In this document: positions 14,029-54,851 of the stretch, piece by piece
Layout: each line of letters starts with the position of its first letter
How positions within the stretch are numbered: the stretch's first letter is position 1
Source: Deefgea rivuli DSM 18356
GTDB lineage: Bacteria; Pseudomonadota; Gammaproteobacteria; Burkholderiales; Chitinibacteraceae
Length of the DNA stretch: 64,000 nt
NCBI RefSeq assembly: GCF_000620145.1
Contig: NZ_KK211082.1
Coordinates: 181,198-245,197, forward strand
Direction of reading: 5' to 3'
Position numbers and translations under genes: made by a program
The notes under the pieces: model-generated
Told to the model about the DNA's origin: nothing
The model's database searches: none
Seen by the model: the letters and a program-made list of their open reading frames with translations, nothing else

Positions 14029-14961
14029 TTAAGCGCCCATTCTTGAATTGTTCACACCCAAACGGGCGGCCACACTCTCGGCCACACGGGCTAGTTTATT
14101 CGCGTAATTTGGATCGGTGGCATAGCCTTCTTTTGCCAAAGCCTTACCAAAACCCACTGCATCACTACCTTGACCTAAAGCATCGCCAAAGCGCCGTTTC
14201 ATCACGCTGGCATAGTCGGCAAAGGCTTCGGTGTAGGAGTCATAAGCACGAAATTTTTCGACTCTTTTTTGCGCCACACCATCAACAAACTCAGTCGTTA
14301 ACACATCGGTGGTTTTACCTTGCCAGCTTGAACCCGCTTTAATCCCGAACAGATTGAATGAGTCTTTGCCTGCGGCATCCGTAATATTTTTTTTGCCCCA
14401 GCCTGTTTCCAAAGCGGCATGCGCCAATAAAACATGTGGCGCAACGCCTAACGCTGCGGCAGTACTTTTCGCTGCGCTACTTAATTTACTAATAAAATCA
14501 CCTGCAGTACCCACTGCTGGCTTATCGGCAACACTGGCTGGCGCAACGGCAGTTTTTGCCGCAACCGCAGGAGTCGAGCGGGCATAAGGCAAGCCACGAT
14601 CAGCGAAGAGATCAACACCTCGGCGCAAGGGTTGTTGCAGTAGTTCAGGATTTTGTTGGACTTGAATTTGCCGAGCAATCACGTCGGCCAAACCCAAGCC
14701 ACCTTTGGCCGACCACATTTGGGTCAATTGTTGATCGTGCATACCACGGAACATCGTCAGGCCACTGCTACCATTGAGGTCATCAGTCGGGCTCGCAGTA
14801 CGCATGGCCGCTAGCATTTGCTGCATCAGAACGGCTTCAAACTGCTGCGCCACGCCTTTTGCACCCGCAGCAGCGTCGGCGCGATTGGCCACACGCAGCT
14901 GATTCATCGCTTTTGGGTCGATGGCGAGCGTGTTCTGAATGGCATTGCTGGCGGTATTCAC
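14029..14961 (-). CDS. flgJ: flagellar rod assembly protein/muramidase FlgJ (GTG start)
   Basis: A two-domain protein of 310 residues. The N-terminal rod-capping domain carries KGVAQQFEAVLMQQMLAAMR, and the C-terminal half is a glucosaminidase/lysozyme-like domain with ALGVAPHVLLAHAALETGWGKK, whose Glu in LETGWG is the expected catalytic residue. It makes the hole in peptidoglycan for the growing rod. I chose the GTG at 14961 because GGAG lies seven bases before it. A longer TTG frame to 15009 has no such signal. A spacer of 170 bp to flgI contains a hairpin repeat. Confidence 0.93.
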   Translation of the reverse strand: MNTASNAIQNTLAIDPKAMNQLRVANRADAAAGAKGVAQQFEAVLMQQMLAAMRTASPTDDLNGSSGLTMFRGMHDQQLTQMWSAKGGLGLADVIARQIQVQQNPELLQQPLRRGVDLFADRGLPYARSTPAVAAKTAVAPASVADKPAVGTAGDFISKLSSAAKSTAAALGVAPHVLLAHAALETGWGKKNITDAAGKDSFNLFGIKAGSSWQGKTTDVLTTEFVDGVAQKRVEKFRAYDSYTEAFADYASVMKRRFGDALGQGSDAVGFGKALAKEGYATDPNYANKLARVAESVAARLGVNNSRMGA

Positions 14962-15071
14962 GATGCTGCTCCAAAGTGCAAATGGCTTGATTGATACAAA
15001 CCAAAGCAAGGAGCATGCCGAAAGTAATTTACTTGGCTTAAATTAAGTATAAAACAGACAAAAGCACAGAT

Positions 15072-15131: not shown

Positions 15132-16223
15132 CTAAATAATTTCAATCACCGCATTCAAAGCGCCGGCTGCTTTCATTGCCTGCAAAATAGCGAGTAAATC
15201 CTGCGGCGTCGCGCCCACCGAATTCAGGGCACGAACGACCTGACTCAGTGAAGTGGCTTTTGGTACTTTCACCATCGGGCCTTTACCGGTTTCAATTCCT
15301 ACTTCAGCATTCTGTACCCGCTTCGCCTGCCCTGCCGCGAGCGCGTTGGGTTGTACCACTTGATTATCCGCAATGATCGTCACAGTCAAGTTGCCGTGCG
15401 CGATTGAGCATTCTTGTACAGTGACTGCCTGATTCATCACCACAGAACCCGTTCGCGCATTAATAATGACTTTGGGATTCATTTGCGCGGGAGTGACATC
15501 GATCGTTTCCAAACGCGCCAGAAAAGCGACGCGCTGATTCGGATCTTGCGGAGCACGAACTTGAATCACTCGTCCATCCAGAGCGCTCGCGACCGCTCCT
15601 ACTTGGCTATTAATCGCGTTCACCACGCGACTTGCGGTTGAGAAATCCGTTTGCAGCAGCTCTAACTGCACAAACTCACCACTCCCCAGTACCGTCGGCA
15701 CCGCCTTTTCCACTGTCGCTCCAGCAGGAATCAATCCAGTCGCCAACTGATTCACTTGCACACTTGTCCCTGCGGCGGCAGCACCAGCACCAGCCACCAC
15801 CAGATTACCCTGCGCCATGGCGTAAATTTGTCCGTCCGCGCCTTTCAAAGGCGCCATCAGCAAAGCACCACCACGTAGGCTACGTGCATTCCCGATAGAA
15901 GAAACCACCACATCGAGCGGCTGCCCTGGCCGCGCAAACGGTGGCAAAGTCGCCGTGACCATCACAGTAGCCACATTTTTAAGCTGGATATTGCCGCCCA
16001 ATGGAATTTGCACGCCTAGATTGGTCAGCATATTGCGGATCGATTGCACCGTAAATGGCGTTTGCGTGGTTTGATCCCCTGTCCCATCCAAACCGACAAC
16101 CAAGCCATAACCCACCAATTGGTTATTTCGTACGCCTGCAAAGCTAACTAGCTGCTTCAAAGGCTCTGCAACACTAGGCAGCGATAAACAACACAGTAAA
16201 GTGGCCAAAATCAGGCGACGCAT
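15132..16223 (-). CDS. flgI: flagellar P-ring protein FlgI
   Basis: A 363-residue periplasmic P-ring subunit. The chosen ATG gives a clean signal peptide (MRRLILATLLCCLSLPSVAEP) and has AAGGG seven bases upstream. An upstream in-frame start at 16262 would overlap flgH and add a non-signal extension. The mature start EPLKQLVSFAGVRNNQLVGYGLVVGLDGTGDQT is a hallmark of FlgI. The ring acts as a bushing around the rod in the peptidoglycan layer. It lies 26 bp downstream of flgH. Confidence 0.97.
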   Translation of the reverse strand: MRRLILATLLCCLSLPSVAEPLKQLVSFAGVRNNQLVGYGLVVGLDGTGDQTTQTPFTVQSIRNMLTNLGVQIPLGGNIQLKNVATVMVTATLPPFARPGQPLDVVVSSIGNARSLRGGALLMAPLKGADGQIYAMAQGNLVVAGAGAAAAGTSVQVNQLATGLIPAGATVEKAVPTVLGSGEFVQLELLQTDFSTASRVVNAINSQVGAVASALDGRVIQVRAPQDPNQRVAFLARLETIDVTPAQMNPKVIINARTGSVVMNQAVTVQECSIAHGNLTVTIIADNQVVQPNALAAGQAKRVQNAEVGIETGKGPMVKVPKATSLSQVVRALNSVGATPQDLLAILQAMKAAGALNAVIEII

Positions 16224-16249
16224 ATTCAAGCCCTTTATCATCGCTAACA

Positions 16250-16933
16250 TTAAAACGGCCAAACCGACAAAAATGCGCGTTGCATCCAGCCCATCGTGTT
16301 GGCATCGGCAATCGCGCCCTGCCCGACTTGTTCGATTCGCGCATCGGCAACACGCGTCGAAGAAACGGTATTTCCGGCGCGGATATCGGCAGGATTAACC
16401 ACTCCGGTAAAGCGAATCAAGCTCGTCTGCCCATTCACCGCAATTTGCTTCTCACCGCCAAAGACCAAATTACCATTCGATAAAACATCCACGACCGTAA
16501 CGGCAATCGTGCCACGGAAGGTGTTGCTGCTATTGGTTTGCCCTTTGCCAGCAAAGGTATTCGCCGAAGTCACATCGGCGCTGGCATCCAGCATTTTGTT
16601 CAGTACTGATGGCATATAGGGCAAATCAGTCGTGCCACTCAACTTCAGACTACCACTTCGATCCGCTGCACTATTGGCCGAGTTCACCGCAGACAGGCTT
16701 TCTTCAATCGCAATAATCAAGATATCGCCAACGCGGCGCGCATTTGGCTCTTCAAACAACAATTTGGCCGTGCCTGACTGAAAAATAGAACCATTACTAG
16801 CCTGAGTCAGTACGGTTTGCTGTGGGCGTGCACTCACTGGCTGAGTCACAATTGATTGCGGCGCAACACAAGCCGTTAAGCCCAATGAAACCAGGACAAC
16901 AGCCAGAATGCGAAAATTATTCAATGTATACAA
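16250..16933 (-). CDS. flgH: flagellar L-ring lipoprotein FlgH
   Basis: A 227-residue outer-membrane ring protein. The N-terminus MYTLNNFRILAVVLVSLGLTAC ends in a lipobox with Cys22 for acylation. The conserved segments NARRVGDILIIAIEESLSA and FSGTIAVTVVDVLSNGNLVFGGEKQI-like text (with R for S) identify the family. It begins one base after flgG ends, indicating tight coupling. Confidence 0.97.
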   Translation of the reverse strand: MYTLNNFRILAVVLVSLGLTACVAPQSIVTQPVSARPQQTVLTQASNGSIFQSGTAKLLFEEPNARRVGDILIIAIEESLSAVNSANSAADRSGSLKLSGTTDLPYMPSVLNKMLDASADVTSANTFAGKGQTNSSNTFRGTIAVTVVDVLSNGNLVFGGEKQIAVNGQTSLIRFTGVVNPADIRAGNTVSSTRVADARIEQVGQGAIADANTMGWMQRAFLSVWPF

Positions 16934-16934
16934 T

Positions 16935-17720
16935 TTATAAAGTACCTAGTTTTTGCAACATTTCATCCGAGGTACGCACAGCACGCGAATTCATTTCATA
17001 CGCCCGTTGCGCTTGAATCATATTGATTAGCTCTTCTGTCACATTTACATTCGATGCTTCCACATAACCTTGGTTAATTGCCCCGAGTCCATTCGTACCC
17101 GGTGTCCCTACTGTGGGCGCACCACTGGCTGCGGTTTCAAGGTACATATTTTCACCCACCGATTGCAGACCCGGTGGATTAATAAAGGTTGCCAACTGAA
17201 TATTACCTAGTTGCACTGGCGCAGCAGAATCATTATTAATGATGGCGGAAACCGTACCGTCTTTGGCAATGGTGACCTTTGTTGTGCCCTGTGGCACTTG
17301 TAATGCCGGCTGCAATGAATAGCCGCTAGAGGTCACGACCGTACCCTGACTATCCACCTGAAAACTACCGTCACGGGTGTAGGATGTCGTACCATCTGGC
17401 AAGGCAATCTGAAAAAAGCCCTGCCCATTGATCGCCATATCCAATGAACCATCGGTCAACTGCAAGCTACCTTGGCTAAATTGACGCGCAGTGGCGACAG
17501 GACGCACCCCCGTACCCACATTTAAGCCCGTCGGCAATTGCGTTTGCTGGCTGCTTGCGGCACCAGGTTGACGTAAATTTTGGTACAGCAAATCTTCAAA
17601 TACCGGCCGCTCACGCTTGAAACCGTTGGTGCTCACGTTCGCCAGATTGTGCGAAATCACATCCACATTAAACTGCATGGCATCCATGCCGGTTTTAGCG
17701 GTCCACAAAGAGCGGATCAT
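16935..17720 (-). CDS. flgG: flagellar distal rod protein FlgG
   Basis: The 261-residue product begins [39 protein letters not shown], the axial-protein signature of FlgG, and ends in the matching C-terminal helix [35 protein letters not shown]. It forms the distal rod of the basal body. It lies 17 bp after flgF. The length matches the usual 260-262 residues. Confidence 0.98.
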
Positions 17721-17737
17721 GATGATTTATTCCTATT

Positions 17738-18478
17738 TTAACTATTGAGCGACAGCAAAGAGGCTGCCGAACGAGAATTCTGCTCTGCGGTTTGCAGTAA
17801 TTTGATTTGCATATCGTAATGCCGTTGCGTCGTAATCATGCTAACCAATTGATCGACTGCATTCACATTACTACCTTCAACCCCGCGAATCGCCAAACGC
17901 ACATTCGGGTCGCTTTGGCCTGCCTCACCATTACGCCGCCGAAACAAGCCATCAAGGCCTTTTTCCATTTCAGCCGCAGGTGGATTCACCAACTTTAAAC
18001 GACCTACTTCCACCGTTTGCGACGGATTACTGAGATCAACTGCTGAAACCGTACCATCGGCAGCGATAGATGGTTGAGTATTTTCTGGAATAGTTAACGG
18101 CCCATTTTCGCCCTCAACCACTTGCCCAGAAAACGTTTTTAACAAGCCCGTCGCATCCATCACAAAGCTACCATTACGGGTATAAGCTTCACCCGATGCG
18201 CTTTGCACCGCAAACCAGCCCTCGCCCATCACAGCAGCATCAAGCTCACGACCAGTTTGTTGAAATGGGCCAGAAGTTAAATCCGCTCCCGTGCCCTGCT
18301 CAATCGCAAATGCCCGAGTGGCTAATCCTGGTCCACCTAAAACAGGAATCGCCCGAAAAGCGGCCAAATCTGCACGAAAACCATGCGTTGATGTGTTTGC
18401 TAAGTTATTCGCAACAGTCGATTGACGGAACTCGGCTTGCTTTGCCCCCGTCATTGCCACATAAATCAAGCGATCCAT
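17738..18478 (-). CDS. flgF: flagellar proximal rod protein FlgF
   Basis: The 246-residue product begins MDRLIYVAMTGAKQAEFRQSTVANNLANTSTHGFRADL and ends with a paired C-terminal helix (NVNAVDQLVSMITTQRHYDMQIKLLQTAEQN). This is the rod protein FlgF, close in fold to FlgG. It lies between flgE and flgG with 9-17 bp gaps, consistent with one transcript. Confidence 0.97.
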   Translation of the reverse strand: MDRLIYVAMTGAKQAEFRQSTVANNLANTSTHGFRADLAAFRAIPVLGGPGLATRAFAIEQGTGADLTSGPFQQTGRELDAAVMGEGWFAVQSASGEAYTRNGSFVMDATGLLKTFSGQVVEGENGPLTIPENTQPSIAADGTVSAVDLSNPSQTVEVGRLKLVNPPAAEMEKGLDGLFRRRNGEAGQSDPNVRLAIRGVEGSNVNAVDQLVSMITTQRHYDMQIKLLQTAEQNSRSAASLLSLNS

Positions 18479-18487
18479 ATCAACCTA

Positions 18488-19804
18488 TCAACTTAAATTA
18501 ACGATGGTTTGCAAAATCGTATCTTGCGCTTTAATCGTTTGTGAGTTGGCCTGGTAATTACGCTGTGCAGTAATTAAATTTACCAGTTCGCTCGTCAAAT
18601 CTACGTTTGAGTCTTCAACTGCAGCCGATTGCAATGAACCCGTGCTACCCGAACCTGGCGCATTGGTCAGTGGCTGCCCTGAAGCCGATGACTCGGCCCA
18701 GCGGTTATCCCCGAGCGGCTGCAAACCTTGCGAGTTAGTAAACGATGACAGCACCACTTGCGCTACATTGCGCGTTTGCCCATTCGAATAACGGCCTTGA
18801 ACCATACCGTCTTTATTCACCGAAATGCCAGTCAAAACACCATCGGTATAACCATCTTGCGTCAGCGTACTCACCGCATATGGGCTACCAAACTGGGTTG
18901 ATTTATCAAAAAACATTTGAAAATTCAAACCATTTGAGCCGTTATTGAGCGTTGCAGCCGTCACATTAAATGTTGAGCCACCAACCGGCAGACCAATCGG
19001 TCGACCATTCGCATCAAAAGTTAATCCTGTAGATAGAGCCGCTACAGCAGGTACTTGCGCACCCAAAGTACCGTTAGCATTCACATCTTTACCATCCAGA
19101 GCATAGCGAATAGTCCAAGTACTGCTCGGTGGAACCGTCGGCACTGCAGGCGGTACATCTTTACGGAAATATAAAGTTTGCGTGTGCGTGCCACCCAAAG
19201 AGTCAAACACAGTCGCTGATGTTGAATAATTGTAAGTGGTCGGATCGGTTGACGAGAAAACAGTCGTTGCAGGAATTACTTTGTCATTGGCGTTTAAATT
19301 CAAGCCTAAATTTAAACCAGCCCCAGTGACACCGGAACCACCCGTTGCGCGTGCGCCAATATTGGAAAATTGCAACTGAATTGGTGTTGGCGTTGAACCG
19401 GCTAAAACTTGCCCCGTTCCCTGATCAACAGCCCAACCTGTTAAAAACTGTGTGTTATTAACGATATAGCCATTTTTATCCAACTGGAACTGGCCGTTAC
19501 GTGCGTAACTAATTGAGCCCGTCGGATCTTGCATACGGAAAAAGCCATTTCCGGTAATCGCAATATCCAGTGGGTTATTCGTTGATGTTGTGTTGCCTTG
19601 GCCAAATTGCTGCGCAATCGTGGTGGTTTTAGCACCAATACCGGCGATATTCGATGAGGAACCAAAAGTACTGGCATAAATATCAGCAAACTCGGCACGT
19701 GCGCCTTTAAAACCCACCGTGCTGGTGTTGGCAACGTTATTGCCAATCACATCGAGATTTTTTGCCGATGTGTTCAAGCCACTTAAACCTTGTTGAAAAC
19801 CCAT
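18488..19804 (-). CDS. flgE: flagellar hook protein FlgE
   Basis: The 438-residue hook subunit begins MGFQQGLSGLNTSAKNLDVIGNNVANTSTVGFKGARAEFADIY and ends NVDLTSELVNLITAQRNYQANSQTIKAQDTILQTIVNLS, both classic FlgE signatures. The middle is Gly/Thr/Ser-rich, as expected for surface domains. It is secreted and assembled under the FlgD cap. It lies 16 bp after flgD. Confidence 0.98.
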   Translation of the reverse strand: MGFQQGLSGLNTSAKNLDVIGNNVANTSTVGFKGARAEFADIYASTFGSSSNIAGIGAKTTTIAQQFGQGNTTSTNNPLDIAITGNGFFRMQDPTGSISYARNGQFQLDKNGYIVNNTQFLTGWAVDQGTGQVLAGSTPTPIQLQFSNIGARATGGSGVTGAGLNLGLNLNANDKVIPATTVFSSTDPTTYNYSTSATVFDSLGGTHTQTLYFRKDVPPAVPTVPPSSTWTIRYALDGKDVNANGTLGAQVPAVAALSTGLTFDANGRPIGLPVGGSTFNVTAATLNNGSNGLNFQMFFDKSTQFGSPYAVSTLTQDGYTDGVLTGISVNKDGMVQGRYSNGQTRNVAQVVLSSFTNSQGLQPLGDNRWAESSASGQPLTNAPGSGSTGSLQSAAVEDSNVDLTSELVNLITAQRNYQANSQTIKAQDTILQTIVNLS

Positions 19805-19820
19805 GATATTCCCCTAATCT

Positions 19821-20507
19821 TTACGCGGTTGTGCTGCCAGTGGCTGAGCGAATTTGAATGACATCACCAAAACCAGTTTTACTGCCGTTCGCCAAATACA
19901 CGCCAACGCCACTACTACCAAACTCAACCGATTTAGCCACTTGCCAAGTCACCGTATCTAAAGCAATTTCCTTGCCATCTTTTTTGCCACTTGCAGCAAC
20001 AGTGTATTCACCAGCAGGGAAAACACTGCCATCCGCTTTTTTGCCATCCCACTCCAACTGCGCCAAACCTGGTTGAGAACTATTAGCAGGAATCTTCGCG
20101 ACTTCAGTGCCATCTTTATCAAAAACACTGAGGATCACGTCACTAGCACCTTCAGGAATGCTCACTCGCAAATCCGCCTTAGTCGTTCCATCAAAGTGGA
20201 AGCCTTTGCCGGGGGTGAGGACTTCTTTGCCGATCAAACCTGCCGCTTGCATCACTTGCGTTCCGGCATACAAAGATTGCATTTGATTCATTGTTTCATT
20301 GAGCTTGCCAATACCAGTGACGGTATTGATTTGCGCCATTTGGCTGGTAGTTTGTGCGTTATCCATCGGATTCATTGGATCTTGCGTTTGCAATTGCTTC
20401 ACCAGCAATTTCATAAAAGTGTCTTGCTGCTTCTCTGCCTCGGTTCTGTTCACCAGTTTTTTAGTATTGAGCGAGGTGTAATCAAAATTATTGCTAATCG
20501 TTGCCAT
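19821..20507 (-). CDS. flgD: flagellar hook cap protein FlgD
   Basis: The 228-residue scaffold for hook assembly contains QQDTFMKLLVKQLQTQDPMNPMDNAQTTSQMAQINTVTGI near residues 26-66, the conserved FlgD export/cap segment, and a C-terminal FlgD Ig-like region (VFPAGEYTVAASGKKDG). It lies between flgC and flgE in the operon with an 11-bp gap to flgC. Confidence 0.97.
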   Translation of the reverse strand: MATISNNFDYTSLNTKKLVNRTEAEKQQDTFMKLLVKQLQTQDPMNPMDNAQTTSQMAQINTVTGIGKLNETMNQMQSLYAGTQVMQAAGLIGKEVLTPGKGFHFDGTTKADLRVSIPEGASDVILSVFDKDGTEVAKIPANSSQPGLAQLEWDGKKADGSVFPAGEYTVAASGKKDGKEIALDTVTWQVAKSVEFGSSGVGVYLANGSKTGFGDVIQIRSATGSTTA

Positions 20508-20518
20508 GATGAATCTCC

Positions 20519-20932
20519 TTAAGCCTGACCGATAGACAAAGTACGCATCAGCAGGGTTTTTGCTGTATTCATTACATCGATATTGGTTTGATAAGAACGC
20601 GAAGCTGAAATCATATTGGTCATTTCTTCGACCACGCTGACATTGGGCATTGCGATATAGCCGTTGCCATCGGCAAATGGATTCTTTGGATCGTAAACCA
20701 GACGCGGCGGCGATTGATCTTCAATCACGCCAGCGACTTTTACGCCTACCGATGCGGCACCATGGGTATTGCTCGGAACAGCTTGAAATACAACCTGCTT
20801 AGCCCGATACGGCTGCCCATTCGAACTAGTGACCGATTCAGCATTCGCCAAATTACTCGCCACCACATTCAAACGCGCCGATTGCGCATTCATTGCTGAC
20901 GAAGCCACATCAAAAACGCGAAACAATGACAT
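20519..20932 (-). CDS. flgC: flagellar proximal rod protein FlgC
   Basis: The 137-residue product begins [50 protein letters not shown] and ends [39 protein letters not shown]. These are the N- and C-terminal signatures of FlgC. It lies 11 bp after flgB in the same operon. Confidence 0.98.
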
Positions 20933-20943
20933 CAGTGCTTTCC

Positions 20944-21348
20944 TTATTGACCCGTTAACGCCGTTTTCATCGACTCAATTCGCCGCGTCATAAAGGTGAC
21001 AGCCGCCTGATAGCGAATCGCGTTATCGGTAAATTCTCTCATTTCGGTATTCATATCGACCGTATTGCCATCAATCGACGGCTGCTGCTCATTGCGGTAT
21101 TGCAGGCTAGGCGCGAATAAATCGACGGTATTGGTGGGCTGTAAATGACGAGTGTTCGTCGCTTGCAAAGTCGCTGGCGTATTACCTGCGCGTGCAGCAT
21201 TAAAAGCAGCTTTAAAATCAATATCACGCGCTTTGTAATTGGGCGTATCGGCATTGGCAATATTAGAGCCCAAGATTTCTTGACGATAACCACGCAATTT
21301 CAGTGCGGTTTCTTGGTTACTAAAATAATTGTCGAGGCGACCTAGCAT
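20944..21348 (-). CDS. flgB: flagellar proximal rod protein FlgB
   Basis: A 134-residue rod protein beginning [45 protein letters not shown]. The start at 21348 has GGAG seven bases upstream; a longer in-frame extension to 21432 would run through the promoter and is rejected. It is the first gene of the eleven-gene minus-strand operon flgBCDEFGHIJKL. A sigma-54-type promoter lies about 30 bp before it. Confidence 0.97.
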
Positions 21349-21377
21349 GTGCAAACTCCATAGAGATGAACAACTAT

Positions 21378-21395
21378 AAGCAGGAAGCGTGCCAA
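21378..21395 (-). promoter_or_regulatory. Sigma-54 promoter of the flg operon
   Basis: On the minus strand the 18-base sequence TTGGCACGCTTCCTGCTT matches the RpoN consensus (TTGGCACG, 4 nt, TTGCW) with GG and GC separated by exactly ten bases. Transcription would start near 21368, about 20 bases before the flgB ATG, leaving room for its GGAG. Confidence 0.85.
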
Positions 21396-21424
21396 TAAAA
21401 AAAAGCCAAGCTAGGCTTGGCTTT
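21396..21424 (-). terminator. Terminator of the gene upstream of flgB
   Basis: On the minus strand AAAGCCAAGC-CTA-GCTTGGCTTT is followed by a T-run. It insulates the flg operon from the small gene at 21527-21745, and its T-run directly abuts the -24 element of the flgB promoter. Confidence 0.88.
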
Positions 21425-21526
21425 GGGATCAATTTTTGATGATTTCAATAAGATAACGGCAAGACTTGCCGACTTACTCAGCACACAAGTGCCATACAGC
21501 CTCTTGTGCAGTGATTTATTGATGAA

Positions 21527-21745
21527 TCAATGAAATTGCAATTGAATTTGCTGTTTAGCCACTGCTGCGGCGCCTTGCAATACTGAATGCACAGTCGCAC
21601 GGTGCGCTGAGGGCGCTGGCTGCCAATCCGTTACCGGTTTACGGGCATTGCCATGGCAAATTACAATTTGAAACCAGCCTTCCATCTCGGCAGAACGAGC
21701 GGACGGACGTGCTTCTACATCAAAATCAAACATACGATTAGTCAT
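21527..21745 (-). CDS. 72-residue protein of unknown function
   Basis: I do not recognise this product. It begins MTNRMFDFDVEARPSARSAE, continues with EGWFQIVICHGNARKPVTDWQ, and ends in an alanine/glutamine-rich tail. It has no signal peptide or membrane helix. A good GGAG lies six bases before the ATG, and a strong terminator follows about 100 bp after the stop, so expression as a single gene is likely. It sits where flgA, flgM or flgN is often found upstream of flgB, but does not resemble any of them. A palindromic repeat lies just upstream. Confidence 0.6.
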   Translation of the reverse strand: MTNRMFDFDVEARPSARSAEMEGWFQIVICHGNARKPVTDWQPAPSAHRATVHSVLQGAAAVAKQQIQLQFH

Positions 21746-21782
21746 AATGGACTCCAAACTACGGGGCTTTGCTGACCTTTTT

Positions 21783-21877
21783 AAGTAGATAAGCAAAAGT
21801 TTTCTTGCATCGTTGTCTCGCCTTGTCGTACTAGACGGCTTCGACGCCTTGCCATAAAACTTTTGCGCGAATACTTA
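21783..21877. repeat. AAAAGTTTT palindromic repeat
   Basis: AAGTA..GCAAAAGTTTTCTTGC at the left and GCCATAAAACTTTTGC..TACTT at the right form an imperfect palindrome, with a central GTCGTACTAGACGGC region. The left arm is almost identical to the copy at 25498. Confidence 0.75.
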
Positions 21878-22195
21878 GAATTTCGGTCGCACAGCCAAAC
21901 CCGCCCAAAAGCCGGACGGTAAAGCACCAAATAGAAGAGCACCACGTTCAGAATGAACTTTGCAGAAAAGCTGAGGAGGCTTGCTGGGGAGAACTACTAA
22001 AACACATGGCAATCATCACTTAAAGTGGATCGCGTTAATGTGCTCAATCAAATTAGTGCCGCGAATATACGACATAAAAAAATCAAAGTCAACACAATAT
22101 GTCAATAAAAAAATAATCACGCACAACTAAAGCAATGATTTGTAATCATCTTATTTAATTGGCATCGTGCCGTGCACGATGCCAAGCTAGCAAAA
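21878..22195. other. Intergenic stretch without recognised feature
   Basis: 318 bp between a repeat and the DUF4332 gene. It is AT-rich towards 22080-22150 and has only short, unsupported ORFs. A small inverted repeat GGCATCGTGCCGTGCACGATGCC at 22161-22183 follows the DUF4332 stop and could help end that transcript. Confidence 0.4.
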
Positions 22196-22600
22196 TCAGT
22201 ACTCAACACCGCGCGGCAAGTCTTTCGCCTCGGCAATCCACTTCTCAACTTGCGACAAACTCGGCGTTGTTCCCGCGAGTTTTTTCGCTTCGTTGGCTGT
22301 TGCCAACGCTTCTTGCAGATTTTGCGCATTGCGGCGCGCCAATTCAGCCACGGTATCCACGCCAGCGGCTTCCAGCAACTCAGCGAACTGCCCTGCCACA
22401 CCGTGAATACGGAATAAATCAGCGTGATTCACCCATTTCAAAATTAATTTATCCGCAATCCCCGTTTGCGCCGCCAATGCATCGCGGCCTTTCGGTGTGC
22501 TACCCGCAGTTAACAGCGCTTCAACGCTGCTAATGCCGGCTTCTTTGAGTTTCGCTGCGTAGGTTTCGCCAATGCCTTCAATATCGATAATTGCCGTCAT
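22196..22600 (-). CDS. DUF4332 helix-hairpin-helix protein
   Basis: A 134-residue protein with two helix-hairpin-helix-like repeats: IEGIGETYAAKLKEAGISSVEALL at the N-terminus and IHGVAGQFAELLEAAGVDTVAELARR in the middle. This pattern matches the DUF4332 family, small proteins with a DNA-binding-like fold and no assigned function. The tail ends WIAEAKDLPRGVEY. There is no membrane segment. It stands between two AAAAGTTTT repeats and looks monocistronic. Confidence 0.8.
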   Translation of the reverse strand: MTAIIDIEGIGETYAAKLKEAGISSVEALLTAGSTPKGRDALAAQTGIADKLILKWVNHADLFRIHGVAGQFAELLEAAGVDTVAELARRNAQNLQEALATANEAKKLAGTTPSLSQVEKWIAEAKDLPRGVEY

Positions 22601-43830: not shown

Positions 43831-43866
43831 AAAAAGCCCAGCAAGATTTGCTGGGCTTTTTTAATT
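43831..43866 (+). terminator. Terminator after the D,D-carboxypeptidase
   Basis: AAAAAGCCCAGCA-AGATT-TGCTGGGCTTTTTTAATTT: a 10-bp stem and a T-tract 20 bp after the stop. Confidence 0.93.
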
Positions 43867-43871
43867 TAAAA

Positions 43872-43922
43872 GGGTATTGCCATACAGGTATTTAATAGCA
43901 AGGTCTAGAAACATATACCCAT
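43872..43922 (+). repeat. Small GTAT-ATACC hairpin repeat (left of large element)
   Basis: GGGTATTGCCATACAGG..AAGGTCTAGAAACAT then ATACCCAT. Inner stem is weak. It stands 15 bp left of the large structured element at 43938. Confidence 0.65.
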
Positions 43923-43937
43923 AGATATCTACTGATA

Positions 43938-44251
43938 TTCAGATTTAGTGTTGATGCTGTGCCGCAATGGTTGAGCTGCGCGAAATCCCTTGTATCAAGC
44001 CGAGCGAGGAACAAGCGGCAAGGGGCTTTCGGCGGGCTCTGTTTTGTTAAAGCCCGCCGCCTTGCCGATTGTCCGCAGCGAGGGAATCCGACGAAGTCGG
44101 ACGCAGATACTAGGGCGGCCTTCTTTTGCTTACTTTTCTTGGCCGTTCAAGAAAAGTAAGTGCCGCGCGGCATTAGCGCGACCATGACGATTAGAAAATT
44201 GACGTGTCAAGTCAAACGATGCACTTTTTTTTATCAATACCCAATCTAAAC
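43938..44251 (+). repeat. Large structured repeat, copy 1
   Basis: Imperfect terminal inverted repeats (CAGATTTAGTGTTGAT and ATCAATACCCAATCT). The internal order is CCCTTGTATCAAGCCGAGCGAGG, a long hairpin with GGCGGGCT/AGCCCGCC, TCCGACGAAGTCGGA, then the hairpin CTTACTTTTCTTG/CAAGAAAAGTAAG and GCCGCGCGGC. It is almost identical inside to copy 3. Short ORFs inside on either strand have no ribosome-binding sites and are not genes. Confidence 0.8.
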
Positions 44252-44577: not shown

Positions 44578-44655
44578 GTAGGGTGTCAATAAGCATTAGC
44601 GTATTGCAACTTTTGCAGCAAATTGGTGGAATGCCTTTCAGTTATTCCACCCTAC
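44578..44655. repeat. GTAGGGTG palindromic repeat
   Basis: GTAGGGTG at the left is inverted as CACCCTAC at the right; inside, GGTGGAAT..ATTCCACC is a second nested stem. This type of intergenic palindrome is frequent in proteobacteria. It ends just before the ribosome-binding site of the next gene. Confidence 0.65.
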
Positions 44656-44676
44656 CCGCTAAAGGCAGAGGGTCTA

Positions 44677-45156
44677 ATGAAAACGATGAAAAATTTATTA
44701 TTTTTCCCTTTAGTATTAATTGCCCTTTTATTATTAACACTTGGTTTTTTTGAGGGCAGAAAGGCTTATTGGGATAATAGAGTGCAAAAAATGTGCAACA
44801 AAGATGGCGGAACTACGGTCTTTGAGCACGTAACAATTAGTCGTGATGATGCACTAAACGGTGGATTGATGCGTGGGGATTTGTTTGCAATTCCTGCGGG
44901 TAAAAACGAGAAGACAATTTTCTATGTTAATTTTGAAAGCAAAAATATTCGTGATAGCGATCCATTAATCTTTCGATCTGAAACTAGTATAGTTCGAGTT
45001 AAAGACAGCAAGATAATCGCAATGATGATTGGCTACGCCCGAGTAGGGGGGGATTTTCCATCATTTTCGCATCCAACACACCAAAGCTGTCGTGAGAGAA
45101 GTAAAGCTTTAATAAATTTTGATAAAGCAGTGCAAATTAAAGAAGAGTCCAAATAG
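44677..45156 (+). CDS. small membrane-anchored protein of unknown function
   Basis: I do not recognise this 159-residue product. One N-terminal membrane helix (about residues 5-24, LLFFPLVLIALLLLTLGFF) could be an uncleaved signal. The remaining part is soluble and probably periplasmic, with three cysteines (MCNKDGG and HQSCRER). GAGGG lies seven bases before the ATG. Base composition is more AT-rich than the flanking genes, which hints at transfer. It sits between repeat blocks, with no functional neighbours. Confidence 0.7.
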   Translation: MKTMKNLLFFPLVLIALLLLTLGFFEGRKAYWDNRVQKMCNKDGGTTVFEHVTISRDDALNGGLMRGDLFAIPAGKNEKTIFYVNFESKNIRDSDPLIFRSETSIVRVKDSKIIAMMIGYARVGGDFPSFSHPTHQSCRERSKALINFDKAVQIKEESK

Positions 45157-45187
45157 AGTTTTATCGTAAACAAGATAAGCCAAGTTC

Positions 45188-45220
45188 GTAGGTTGGGCTA
45201 AGCCTGCGCAGCCCAACGTT
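45188..45220. repeat. GTAGGTTGGGC palindromic repeat, left copy
   Basis: GTAGGTTGGGCTAAGC..GCGCAGCCCAACGTT. Nearly the reverse complement (32 of 33) of 45363-45395, so the two bound a 142-bp segment. Confidence 0.65.
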
Positions 45221-45362: not shown

Positions 45363-45395
45363 AACGTTGGGCTGCGCAAGCTTAGCCCAACCTAC
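45363..45395. repeat. GTAGGTTGGGC palindromic repeat, right copy
   Basis: AACGTTGGGCTGCGCA..GCTTAGCCCAACCTAC; identical over this length to 55273-55305 and inverted relative to 45188-45220. Confidence 0.65.
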
Positions 45396-45483
45396 GATAC
45401 TGTTTTAACCATTTGTGTATATCGTGGTGCGCAACGCTGCGCGTTTCACACCCTACCAACCAATCCGTCATCGAGTCATCACC

Positions 45484-46545
45484 ATGTCGTCACCCTGCTC
45501 TACCTTAGAAACGCCTCCCAATCCAGAACTCATCACGCTGGCGCAGGCACATTTGCGGGATGTGTTGACGATTGCGTTTGAACACATCGATGGTGAGCAA
45601 CAGGCGGTGGTGGTGTTTGATACGCGCTGTGAGCTGGCGGCGACGTTGACAGAGGCTTATCGCTTGGCTTTGCCGAACGCGAACTTCATTGATTTTGATG
45701 CCAGCACGCCCGAGCAAGTATTGGCGGCGTTTGCGCCGTTGGCCGCGAAAGATTTGGTGGTGTTAGTGCAATCGACGAACTTTCGGCTGGAAGCATTTCG
45801 GATTCGCGTCGAGCTATTTAAGCGTGGTTTAAAAGTGATCGAGCATCCGCATTTGGGGCGGATGCAGGGGGCGGAAGTCCCGATTTATGTCGATTCACTG
45901 GCGTATGATCCTTGCTATTATCGCGGCGTTGGGCATGCGCTAAAAGCCAAAATCGATAGCGCCAGCCGTGGTTTGGTCGATAGTGGCGCGGGCAATGTGC
46001 TGCACTTCGCGGCGCCGTTTGAATCGGCCAAGCTCAATATTGGCGATTACAGCCAGATGAATAATGTCGGCGGGCAATTTCCGCTCGGCGAAGTGTTTAC
46101 CGAAACGCAGGACTTTGCGGCGGTGAATGGCCGAATTCGCGTGTTTGTGTTTGGCGACACGCGCTACCGCGTGAACCGCCCTAGCCTACCGATTACCTTG
46201 GTGATAGCCCAAAGCCAAATCATCGACGTCATCGATTCAACGCCCGAATTTGATGAGATGCTGGCGATGATCCGCGCTGATGAAGGCGGCGTGGTATGGG
46301 TGCGGGAACTCGGTTTGGGAATGAATCGCGCATTTAGTTTTGCGCGCACCGTCAGCGATATTGGCACTTATGAGCGTATGTGCGGGATTCATTTGTCGCT
46401 TGGTATGAAGCACGGTATTTACGCCAAGCCGAATATCAAACGCGGTGAAGGCAAATACCATATCGACGTGTTTGCGATCACCGAATCGGTGCAGTTTGAC
46501 GATGAAGTCGTTTACCGCAATGGCGCTTGGGTGGTTTCGCCGTAA
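45484..46545 (+). CDS. M29 aminopeptidase-like protein
   Basis: A 354-residue cytoplasmic protein without close relatives that I can name. The C-terminal half resembles M29 (AmpT/AmpS) metallopeptidases: FPLGEVFTE (E203), RELGLGMN (E275), GIHLSLG (H303) and YHIDVF (H326, D328). The order and spacing match the five metal ligands of the family, so an active dinuclear site is plausible. The N-terminal half (DTRCELAATLTEAYRLALPNANFIDFD) is a Rossmann-like region. The ATG at 45484 is chosen over a GTG at 45415. Its upstream spacer is full of repeats. Confidence 0.7.
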   Translation: MSSPCSTLETPPNPELITLAQAHLRDVLTIAFEHIDGEQQAVVVFDTRCELAATLTEAYRLALPNANFIDFDASTPEQVLAAFAPLAAKDLVVLVQSTNFRLEAFRIRVELFKRGLKVIEHPHLGRMQGAEVPIYVDSLAYDPCYYRGVGHALKAKIDSASRGLVDSGAGNVLHFAAPFESAKLNIGDYSQMNNVGGQFPLGEVFTETQDFAAVNGRIRVFVFGDTRYRVNRPSLPITLVIAQSQIIDVIDSTPEFDEMLAMIRADEGGVVWVRELGLGMNRAFSFARTVSDIGTYERMCGIHLSLGMKHGIYAKPNIKRGEGKYHIDVFAITESVQFDDEVVYRNGAWVVSP

Positions 46546-46604
46546 TGCATTGAAGTCGTCAAAAATGGCCTCAATGCCGATCTAAATAAAAAATATAAAA
46601 GCAA

Positions 46605-46654
46605 GGTATTACCATCTAGCCATTACTCATAAAGGCCTAGATGGTAATACCCAT
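46605..46654 (+). repeat. Small GTAT-ATACC hairpin repeat (first of three in tandem)
   Basis: GGTATTACCATCTAGCC, loop, GGCCTAGATGGTAATACCCAT. The stem GGTATTACCATCTAG/CTAGATGGTAATACC is perfect over 15 bp. It is identical to 47030-47079. Confidence 0.85.
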
Positions 46655-46667
46655 AATAAAATGGCTA

Positions 46668-47017
46668 TGTTCGGATTTGGTGTTGATGCTGTGCCGCGAT
46701 GGTTGGACTGCGCGAGATCCCTTGTATCAAGCCGAGCGAGGAACAAGCGGGTCGGGGTTTTTGCGATCAATGTTTGAGCGAGGCCGATGCTGTTGCCTTT
46801 GAGGCCGACCGAGTTTTGAGCGCAACCGACCCGATTGTCCGCAGCGAGGGCATCCGGCGAAGCCGGACGCAGATACAGGGCGGCCTTCTTTTGCTTACTT
46901 TTCTTGGCCGTTCAAGAAAAGTAAGTGCCGCGCGGCATGAGCGCGACCATGGTGAGTAGAAAATTGAAGCCTTCGTTTAAAGTGAAGTAATTTTTTATCA
47001 ACACCAAATCCGAACAT
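46668..47017 (+). repeat. Large structured repeat, copy 2 (perfect 21-bp terminal inverted repeats)
   Basis: The first and last 21 bases are perfect inverted repeats (ATGTTCGGATTTGGTG.. and ..CACCAAATCCGAACAT). Inside, the central outer stem is GGGTCGG/CCGACCC where copy 3 has GGCAAGG/CCTTGCC, and the small hairpin TCCGGCGAAGCCGGA carries a paired change from TCCGACGAAGTCGGA. No transposase or other gene is encoded. Confidence 0.88.
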
Positions 47018-47029
47018 CGAAAAAAGCAA

Positions 47030-47079
47030 GGTATTACCATCTAGCCATTACTCATAAAGGCCTAGATGGTAATACCCAT
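47030..47079 (+). repeat. Small GTAT-ATACC hairpin repeat (second in tandem)
   Basis: Identical to the copy at 46605, offset by 425 bp, between large copies 2 and 3. Confidence 0.85.
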
Positions 47080-47091
47080 AATAAAATGGCT

Positions 47092-47409
47092 ATGTTCGGA
47101 TTTGGTGTTGATGCTGTGCCGCGATGGTTGGACTGCGCGAGATCCCTTGTATCAAGCCGAGCGAGGAACAAGCGGCAAGGGGCTTTCGGCGGGCTCTGTT
47201 TTGTTAAAGCCCGCCGCCTTGCCGATTGTCCGCAGCGAGGGAATCCGACGAAGTCGGACGCAGATACTAGGGCGGCCTTCTTTTGCTTACTTTTCTTGGC
47301 CGTTCAAGAAAAGTAAGTGCCGCGCGGCATGAGCGCGACCATGGTGAGTAGAAAATTGAAGCCTTCGTTTAAAGTGAAGTAATTTTTTATCAACACCAAA
47401 TCCGAACAT
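47092..47409 (+). repeat. Large structured repeat, copy 3 (perfect 21-bp terminal inverted repeats)
   Basis: Same 21-bp ends as copy 2, but the interior matches copy 1 instead, with GGCAAGG..CCTTGCC and GGCGGGCT..AGCCCGCC stems. This shows exchange of internal modules between elements. Confidence 0.88.
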
Positions 47410-47421
47410 CGAAAAAAGCAA

Positions 47422-47468
47422 GGTATTGCCATCTAGCCATTATTCATAATGACCTAGATGGTAATACC
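47422..47468 (+). repeat. Small GTAT-ATACC hairpin repeat (third in tandem)
   Basis: GGTATTGCCATCTAG..CTAGATGGTAATACC. It differs from the first two at a few positions. It ends 28 bp before the stop of the glycerate kinase gene. Confidence 0.8.
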
Positions 47469-47495
47469 AACCATAAAACATTCGTTCACATTAAC

Positions 47496-54366: not shown

Positions 54367-54570
54367 GGTTGGGCTAAGTTGATTTGCGGTTGAGGTCGGG
54401 ATTAAACAGAGCGTGCCAGCAAAATTACCGCTGCTAGCGCGAAAAAAATCAATCTTGGCATCTTACAGCATCAGCGAGTGCAAGGCTTGATGCGACGCAG
54501 AGTAAACAAGATGAAATTATTGATTTGGCATTTTTTGACTGCTAATCGGGCGCGAAGTTCTAATAGGCTG

Positions 54571-54851
54571 AGAGTTTGGTGTTGATGAAAAATCGCTTCA
54601 CTTAAACTAAACGTGTCAATTTTCTTCTCACCATGGTCGCGCTCATGCCGCGCGGCACTAACTTTTCTTGAACGGCCAAGAAAAGTAAGCAAAAGAAGGC
54701 CGCCCTAGTATCTGCGTCCGACTTCGTCGGATCCCCTCGCTGCGGACAATCGGCAAGGCGGCGGGCTTTAACAAAACAGAGCCCGCCGAAAGCCCCTTGC
54801 CGCTTGTTCCTCGCTCGGCTTGACACAAGGGATCTGGCGCAGCTCAACGAT
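54571..54851 (-). repeat. Large structured repeat, copy 4 (one end missing)
   Basis: In inverse orientation, with TTGGTGTTGAT at the left, the GCCGCGCGGC and AAGAAAAGTAAG hairpins, TCCGACTTCGTCGGA and the GGCGGGCT-type stem. Beyond 54851 no terminal inverted repeat is found. Predicted ORFs in it are not genes. Confidence 0.8.

Follow-up and report, generated by a model that had tools for sequence, protein, structure and literature searches.

The rod and hook genes of Deefgea rivuli DSM 18356 are preceded by a conserved sigma-54 promoter upstream of flgB, and we consider it likely, with a probability of about 80%, that this promoter is activated by an FlrC-type regulator from an inverted repeat further upstream, across an intervening terminator. 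In this arrangement the FlrC-type protein P0002, phosphorylated by its partner kinase, would bind CGGCAA-N3-TTGCCG at 21457-21471 (with the site centred near -96), loop over the terminator and open the RpoN polymerase poised at 21379-21395. The same protein would also serve the sigma-54 promoters of flgJ and fliK from repeats within those genes and act near fliE from a repeat copy within flrC. All positions refer to the 64,000-nucleotide stretch of DNA that was analysed (the window), unless another contig or locus is named, and the features of the rod/hook region are collected in Table 1.

Table 1. Features of the rod/hook region, listed from upstream to downstream
Feature	Positions	Strand	Remarks
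72-codon open frame	21527-21745	-	No Pfam match; upstream; terminator would end its transcript
Inverted repeat CGGCAAGTCTTGCCG, proposed FlrC enhancer	21457-21471	-	Centre about 96 bp upstream of predicted start
Intrinsic terminator	21397-21424	-	Stem 21424-21402, 10 pairs, then T5
Sigma-54 promoter of flgB	21379-21395	-	TTGGCACGCTTCCTGCT; predicted start near 21368; 30/30 family loci
GGAG, likely ribosome binding site of flgB	21356-21359	-	Read from sequence
flgB	20944-21348	-	TIGR01396, 120.6 bits against a cut-off of 59.05; ATG at 21348
flgC to flgI	15132-20932	-	flgC, flgD, flgE from family searches; flgF, flgG, flgH, flgI from gene order and sequence
Second sigma-54 site TCGGCATGCTCCTTGCT	15005-15021	-	flgI-flgJ gap; counterpart in 21/21 family operons
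flgJ open frame	14029-15009	-	Pfam Rod-binding and Glucosaminidase; start probably near 14961
Near-exact repeat CGGCAAAAACTGCCG (11/12)	14547-14561	-	Within flgJ, 444 nt below flgJ promoter

Sigma-54 promoters of the rod/hook genes

The product of flgB is 86% identical to FlgB of Deefgea chitinilytica, the closest named relative. The promoter of the gene, TTGGCACGCTTCCTGCT, reads on the minus strand from 21395 to 21379 with GG-N10-GC spacing, and the ATG follows 30 nt past its end. The -24 half is perfect, and the -12 half, CTGCT, shows one departure from the sigma-54 consensus TTGCW. The pattern YTGGCACG-N4-YTGCW has a single match in the 64 kb window, where shuffled sequence leads one to expect 0.03 and 3 of 100 shuffles reach one. 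The whole genome (3.71 Mb in 23 contigs, searched and then read in stretches) contains five exact matches, and if one mismatch is allowed there are 75, against 29 for the reversed control; a looser sigma-54 pattern with up to three mismatches is not enriched at all (207 found, 218 expected). At least two of the five exact matches are antisense within genes (C1:459489 and C4:258402), so not all matches are promoters. Two further exact matches are found upstream of genes which by eye we take to be nitrate-transporter-like (L047:10027-10043, minus strand) and htpX-like (L049:7632-7648, plus strand).

Conservation points to a functional site. Forty-three genomes of the Deefgea family carry flgB and 30 flgB loci were fetched for the promoter and repeat counts; every one of these 30 has a sigma-54 site scoring at least 0.83 at 46-79 nt upstream of flgB, a score that 3.6% of random 300-nt single-strand draws would also reach. 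The genome has one rpoN gene, seen as one Sigma54_DBD match. That this is a true sigma-54 promoter under RpoN control is well supported, and the near-perfect RpoN site with ten bases from GG to GC, which the initial annotation had described here, is thus present and kept throughout the family loci. The transcription start is predicted near 21368 from the promoter spacing.

It has been suggested for Laribacter and Chromobacterium that flagellar genes are read by another route, and flgB might by analogy be transcribed mainly by housekeeping or FliA (sigma-28) polymerase. FlgM/FliA control was proposed for this group because FlhDC is missing (PMC3180692; this and the other papers cited below are represented by excerpts), and D. 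rivuli does have a FliA-type gene (L191:484-1224), but with the sigma-54 site in all 30 family loci and no minus-strand match listed near flgB by a sigma-70 scan we find such transcription extremely improbable.

The flgB promoter was originally thought to drive the entire rod/hook operon. The word 'entire' is doubtful, because another conserved sigma-54 site is found ahead of flgJ. This site is present in each of the 21 family operons that were read: in 20 cases the flgI-flgJ gap contains it, and in G029 it neighbours a displaced flgJ.

The terminator ahead of the promoter

A single A separates the TTTTT of the intrinsic terminator from the flgB promoter. The terminator would end the upstream transcript, and we infer that it could in this way shield the promoter from read-through. 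The fusion of promoter and terminator noted in the initial annotation is real in Deefgea but limited to two genera, Deefgea itself (g1, 7 of 7 loci) and g8 (8 of 8), with one weak case in g6 and none in the remaining 12 of the 28 family loci counted (G010 and G021, whose starts were misplaced, were left out). On these counts we rejected the fusion as a mechanism. No Rfam family exceeds its threshold at 20900-22200. A palindromic stretch, TTGGCATCGTGCCGTGCACGATGCCAA, read by eye, is found at 22158-22187, just below a DUF4332 gene (22196-22600).

A conserved inverted repeat upstream of flgB

The initial annotation had reported no activator site, but there is a conserved candidate at 21457-21471. 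This repeat, CGGCAA-N3-TTGCCG, was first seen by eye and then by enumeration of all inverted repeats upstream of flgB with six-base arms and spacers of 0-10. It is the commonest exact inverted repeat in the family (24 of 28 loci, the next one reaching 8). For comparison we used a named set, that is, the genomes of the best 50 of 80 named flgB loci, 16 with a sigma-54 promoter at flgB and 34 without. Here it is again the commonest among the promoter-bearing loci (11 of 16, the next one 3), while in the 34 loci without the promoter it falls outside the top five. Allowing up to one mismatch, the repeat is present in 12 of the 16 and in none of the 34; among the four loci that miss it, L071 and L088 have identical arms separated by four bases, a variant that L063 and L070 lack. 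Two loci needed a decision: L107, with a weak sigma-54 match (0.83) at -333 and no repeat, was counted as promoter-lacking, and L104, with the promoter at -236 and the repeat at -333, as promoter-bearing. Within the family the repeat is present in 26 of 30 flgB loci and is missing within 300 nt of flgB in G002, G004, G005 and G016, although FlrC is present there.

As we read these counts, the case for the repeat rests on its conserved place and not on its rarity. With up to one mismatch the genome has 31 copies, hardly above the 22 of the reversed control, and the window has two where 0.54 are expected, a number that 8 of 100 shuffles reach. The distances between repeat and promoter give R of 0.75 for 14 distinct genus/distance values, grouped by hand and with an assumed period of 10.5, which is suggestive only of helical phasing.

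The motif itself has known relatives. Caulobacter FlbD binds CCCGGCAxxxxxTGCCGGG and Desulfovibrio DVU1063 binds GGCAxxxxTGCC (PMC3333781, excerpt). Written as CGGCA-N5-TGCCG, the Deefgea repeat equals the FlbD core published there (GGCA-N5-TGCC), and it is ftr-like in that this core lies close to a sigma-54 flagellar promoter. Binding of FlrC to the repeat is, in our opinion, strongly indicated. A betaproteobacterial repeat of this kind is undescribed in the titles and opening lines of abstracts among the literature matches listed, a set that mostly leaves subscription journals outside.

Could the repeat be a second terminator instead, or the operator of another regulator? The terminator scan does list it at 21457-21471, and in several loci of genus g6 a T-run follows it. 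The loci of genera g8, g4 and g2, however, have no T-run after the repeat, flgJ, flrC and fliK have copies of it in their coding sequence, a place in which termination would do harm, and the repeat tracks the sigma-54 promoter together with FlrC. We consider both of these roles very unlikely and retain the repeat as the candidate FlrC enhancer.

The proposed FlrC-type activator and its partner kinase

The gene for P0002 lies on contig 1, just ahead of fliE, and the protein combines a receiver, which looks canonical by eye, with a sigma-54 AAA+ domain and an HTH_8 domain (a Fis-type, DNA-binding HTH). Its best NCBIfam match is FlbD (425 bits, cut-off 750), followed by AtoC (420) and NtrC (406); it reaches no NCBIfam cut-off, and no FlrC model is among the 25 best matches. 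Compared with solved chains, the top match over the full length is an NtrC-family protein (311 bits), and among the AAA+-only chains V. cholerae FlrC is the best (293 bits, with the next different protein at 258).

An orthologue of this protein is found in all 43 family genomes at 66-100% identity, the copy in G010 having an internal stop. Its distribution in the named set follows the promoter closely: an orthologue of at least 440 bits is present in 14 of the 16 genomes with the flgB sigma-54 promoter and in none of the 34 without (up to 34 candidates were scored per genome, and all other hits stayed at or below 342 bits). The two genomes in which it was not found, L085 and L110, have both promoter and repeat, and both are metagenome assemblies. 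The Fisher values (1e-10, 1e-8 and 1e-6) ignore kinship and, because the named genomes are related, overstate the case.

A candidate partner kinase, with HisKA, HATPase_c and a weak PAS_8 domain, is encoded about 11 kb from flrC in the same cluster. Relatives with 39-45% identity to it sit directly ahead of flrC in four named-genome loci; for comparison, the genome's own NtrB is 25% identical and its PilS-like protein 28% over the longer segment. The kinase would phosphorylate P0002. In D. rivuli (L043:882-14150) the 11 kb between the flrB-like kinase gene and flrC hold genes which, by eye, we take to be of the chemotaxis (che) type.

P0002 is not the only sigma-54 activator of D. rivuli. The genome also encodes NtrC (over its cut-off), a PilR-like protein beside a pilS-like gene, a receiver-less activator and one that is split, on contig 6. 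An enhancer-binding protein such as NtrC, the PilR-like or the receiver-less one might act at flgB, or FlrC might act from solution like Helicobacter FlgR, which lacks a DNA-binding domain and needs no enhancer (PMC3930126, excerpt); the absence of the repeat from 4 of 30 family loci would agree with this. These possibilities seem unlikely to us, as the tally of FlrC separates the genomes with the flgB promoter from those without, P0002 carries HTH_8, a DNA-binding domain, and the repeat has the core of an FlbD site. We therefore continue with P0002, bound to the repeat, as the likely activator.

A proposed hierarchy without FleQ

The promoter was initially taken to imply a polar-flagellum type of hierarchy, with RpoN and a FleQ/FlrC-type activator in place of FlhDC, and a search for fleQ/flrBC and for missing flhDC genes was proposed as a check. 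The FlrC part of this holds, with flrC and a candidate kinase gene in the genome and the orthologue throughout the family. The FleQ part is not supported: the sole FleQ-profile match in the genome is the receiver of the FlrC-like protein itself (25.9 bits), and FleQ was rejected there. The one strong match in the family (98 bits) comes from G032, a genome with 6% contamination. 'FlrC-type, without FleQ' is a better description of the regulator. The flhF-, flhG- (presumably; named by eye) and fliA-type genes, all present, fit a polar flagellum.

The FlhC profile has no match in the genome, and for FlhC this agrees with the initial reading. To read absence of FlhDC from the promoter is, however, too strong, since 5 of the 16 promoter-bearing named genomes also have FlhC. 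Twelve of the 50 named genomes lack FlhC, and 11 of these have the promoter; of the other 38, which have FlhC, five have it. These five (L073, L082, L085, L097 and L104) have the sigma-54 flgB promoter with the repeat and a full-length FlhC elsewhere in the genome, representing either a mixed hierarchy or two systems. In the family a weak FlhC-like protein (about 35 bits, cut-off 27) occurs in 3 of 43 genomes, G022, G035 and G042. These three, of genus g8, also hold second, divergent copies of flgB and flhB, perhaps from a second flagellar system.

Repeat copies inside flagellar genes

Exact copies of the repeat occur three times in the genome: upstream of flgB, within fliK and within what we take by eye to be a murC-like gene. 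Fifteen of the 31 copies with up to one mismatch were viewed in context, and four of them are flagellar, namely those upstream of flgB and within fliK, flgJ and flrC. The flgJ copy is kept in all 21 family operons, with 11 of 12 bases in each, and in 20 of them the reading frame across it is xCG GCA AAN NNT GCC G (the frame finder assigned another frame to G009), with residues that vary around it. Its arms average 1.92 bits against 0.39 in 90 flanking columns, a contrast that is inflated because the ungapped rows were aligned to each other by the repeat. The copy within flrC is found in 27 of 30 loci (arms 1.90 against 0.58 bits, computed without the three rows that lack the repeat) and that within fliK in 17 of 30 (13 rows being left out of its bits figure). 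In the flrC-fliE stretch of the named genomes, 13 of 14 FlrC loci have a copy with at least 11 of 12 bases; the fetched stretch of L254 has none.

A sigma-54 site is found upstream of fliK in 30 of 30 family loci, while upstream of fliE a sigma-54-like site (at least 0.83) is found in 15 of 30, with a score of 0.78 in D. rivuli itself. A CCTACAAT box upstream of fliE, present in 24 of 30, can be read as a housekeeping promoter. A stronger sigma-54-like match (0.95), 414 nt ahead of the stop of flrC, was tried as the fliE promoter and rejected: it encodes the residues LARSML of the protein and is therefore read as coding.

In V. cholerae the sites for FlrC mostly lie below the start and function as genuine enhancers, and expression of the fliK operon depends on FlrC (PMC6504787, excerpt). 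By analogy, the gene-internal repeats may be downstream enhancers, at distances that are long in Deefgea (444 nt in flgJ). If so, they would clearly exemplify enhancers that lie within coding sequence, and this set of repeats is to us the most interesting part of the system.

Comparison with known flagellar systems

Among the closest parallels are V. cholerae FlrBC and P. aeruginosa FleSR, where sigma-54 and a two-component pair likewise activate flgB (PMC7064773, excerpt), and it is V. cholerae FlrC that P0002 matches best among AAA+-only solved chains. Vibrio and Pseudomonas have FlrA or FleQ at a level above the pair, whereas searches of the Deefgea genome gave no FleQ-type protein. The Deefgea flgB repeat is upstream, unlike most FlrC sites of V. 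cholerae (PMC6504787). With Caulobacter FlbD the likeness is in the motif core CGGCA-N5-TGCCG (PMC3333781) and in the best NCBIfam match of P0002, which stays, however, well below the cut-off of the FlbD model (425 against 750 bits). Desulfovibrio DVU1063 binds the similar GGCA-N4-TGCC (PMC3333781). FlbD acts as an activator of middle genes and as a repressor of fliF (PMC3930126); it is controlled by FliX and its receiver is seemingly unphosphorylated, according to the excerpts of PMC3930126 and PMC3096577, while Deefgea has a histidine kinase and a receiver of canonical look by eye. Campylobacter FlgSR is similar in placing sigma-54 rod/hook genes under a two-component pair with no master regulator (PMC7064773), but the C-terminal domain of FlgR is dispensable for activation there (PMC3930126), while Deefgea has a conserved candidate enhancer and HTH_8.

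We are dealing with a flagellar switch of a known kind, as the initial annotation correctly recognised; what we add is its likely activator, the candidate site of that activator and a second promoter. An activator and a site are thus proposed for a setting where published work saw no FlhDC and turned to FlgM/FliA (PMC3180692, excerpt). A wider picture, which we put forward tentatively and would rate at slightly less than even odds, is that in nearly all genomes of the Deefgea family neither FlhDC nor FleQ stands on top. FlrBC would then form the top tier, with fliE transcribed from a housekeeping promoter, and FlbD-type enhancers would carry the signal; several of these would lie within flgJ, fliK and flrC, tying protein linkers to a DNA site and making the activator gene the carrier of its neighbour's enhancer.

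Other repeats in the window

A long intergenic element is present in several copies, at 43865-44202 and 46597-47478, with related sequence at 54560-54760. Stretches of 165, 268 and 210 nt share 74-98% identity and contain internal inverted repeats such as CTTACTTTTCTTGGCCGTTCAAGAAAAGTAAG. A separate 35-nt inverted repeat (45186-45220 and 45363-45397) has 97% complementarity and 142 nt between its arms, and the open frames beside it, 44623-45156 and 45415-46545, have no Pfam match.
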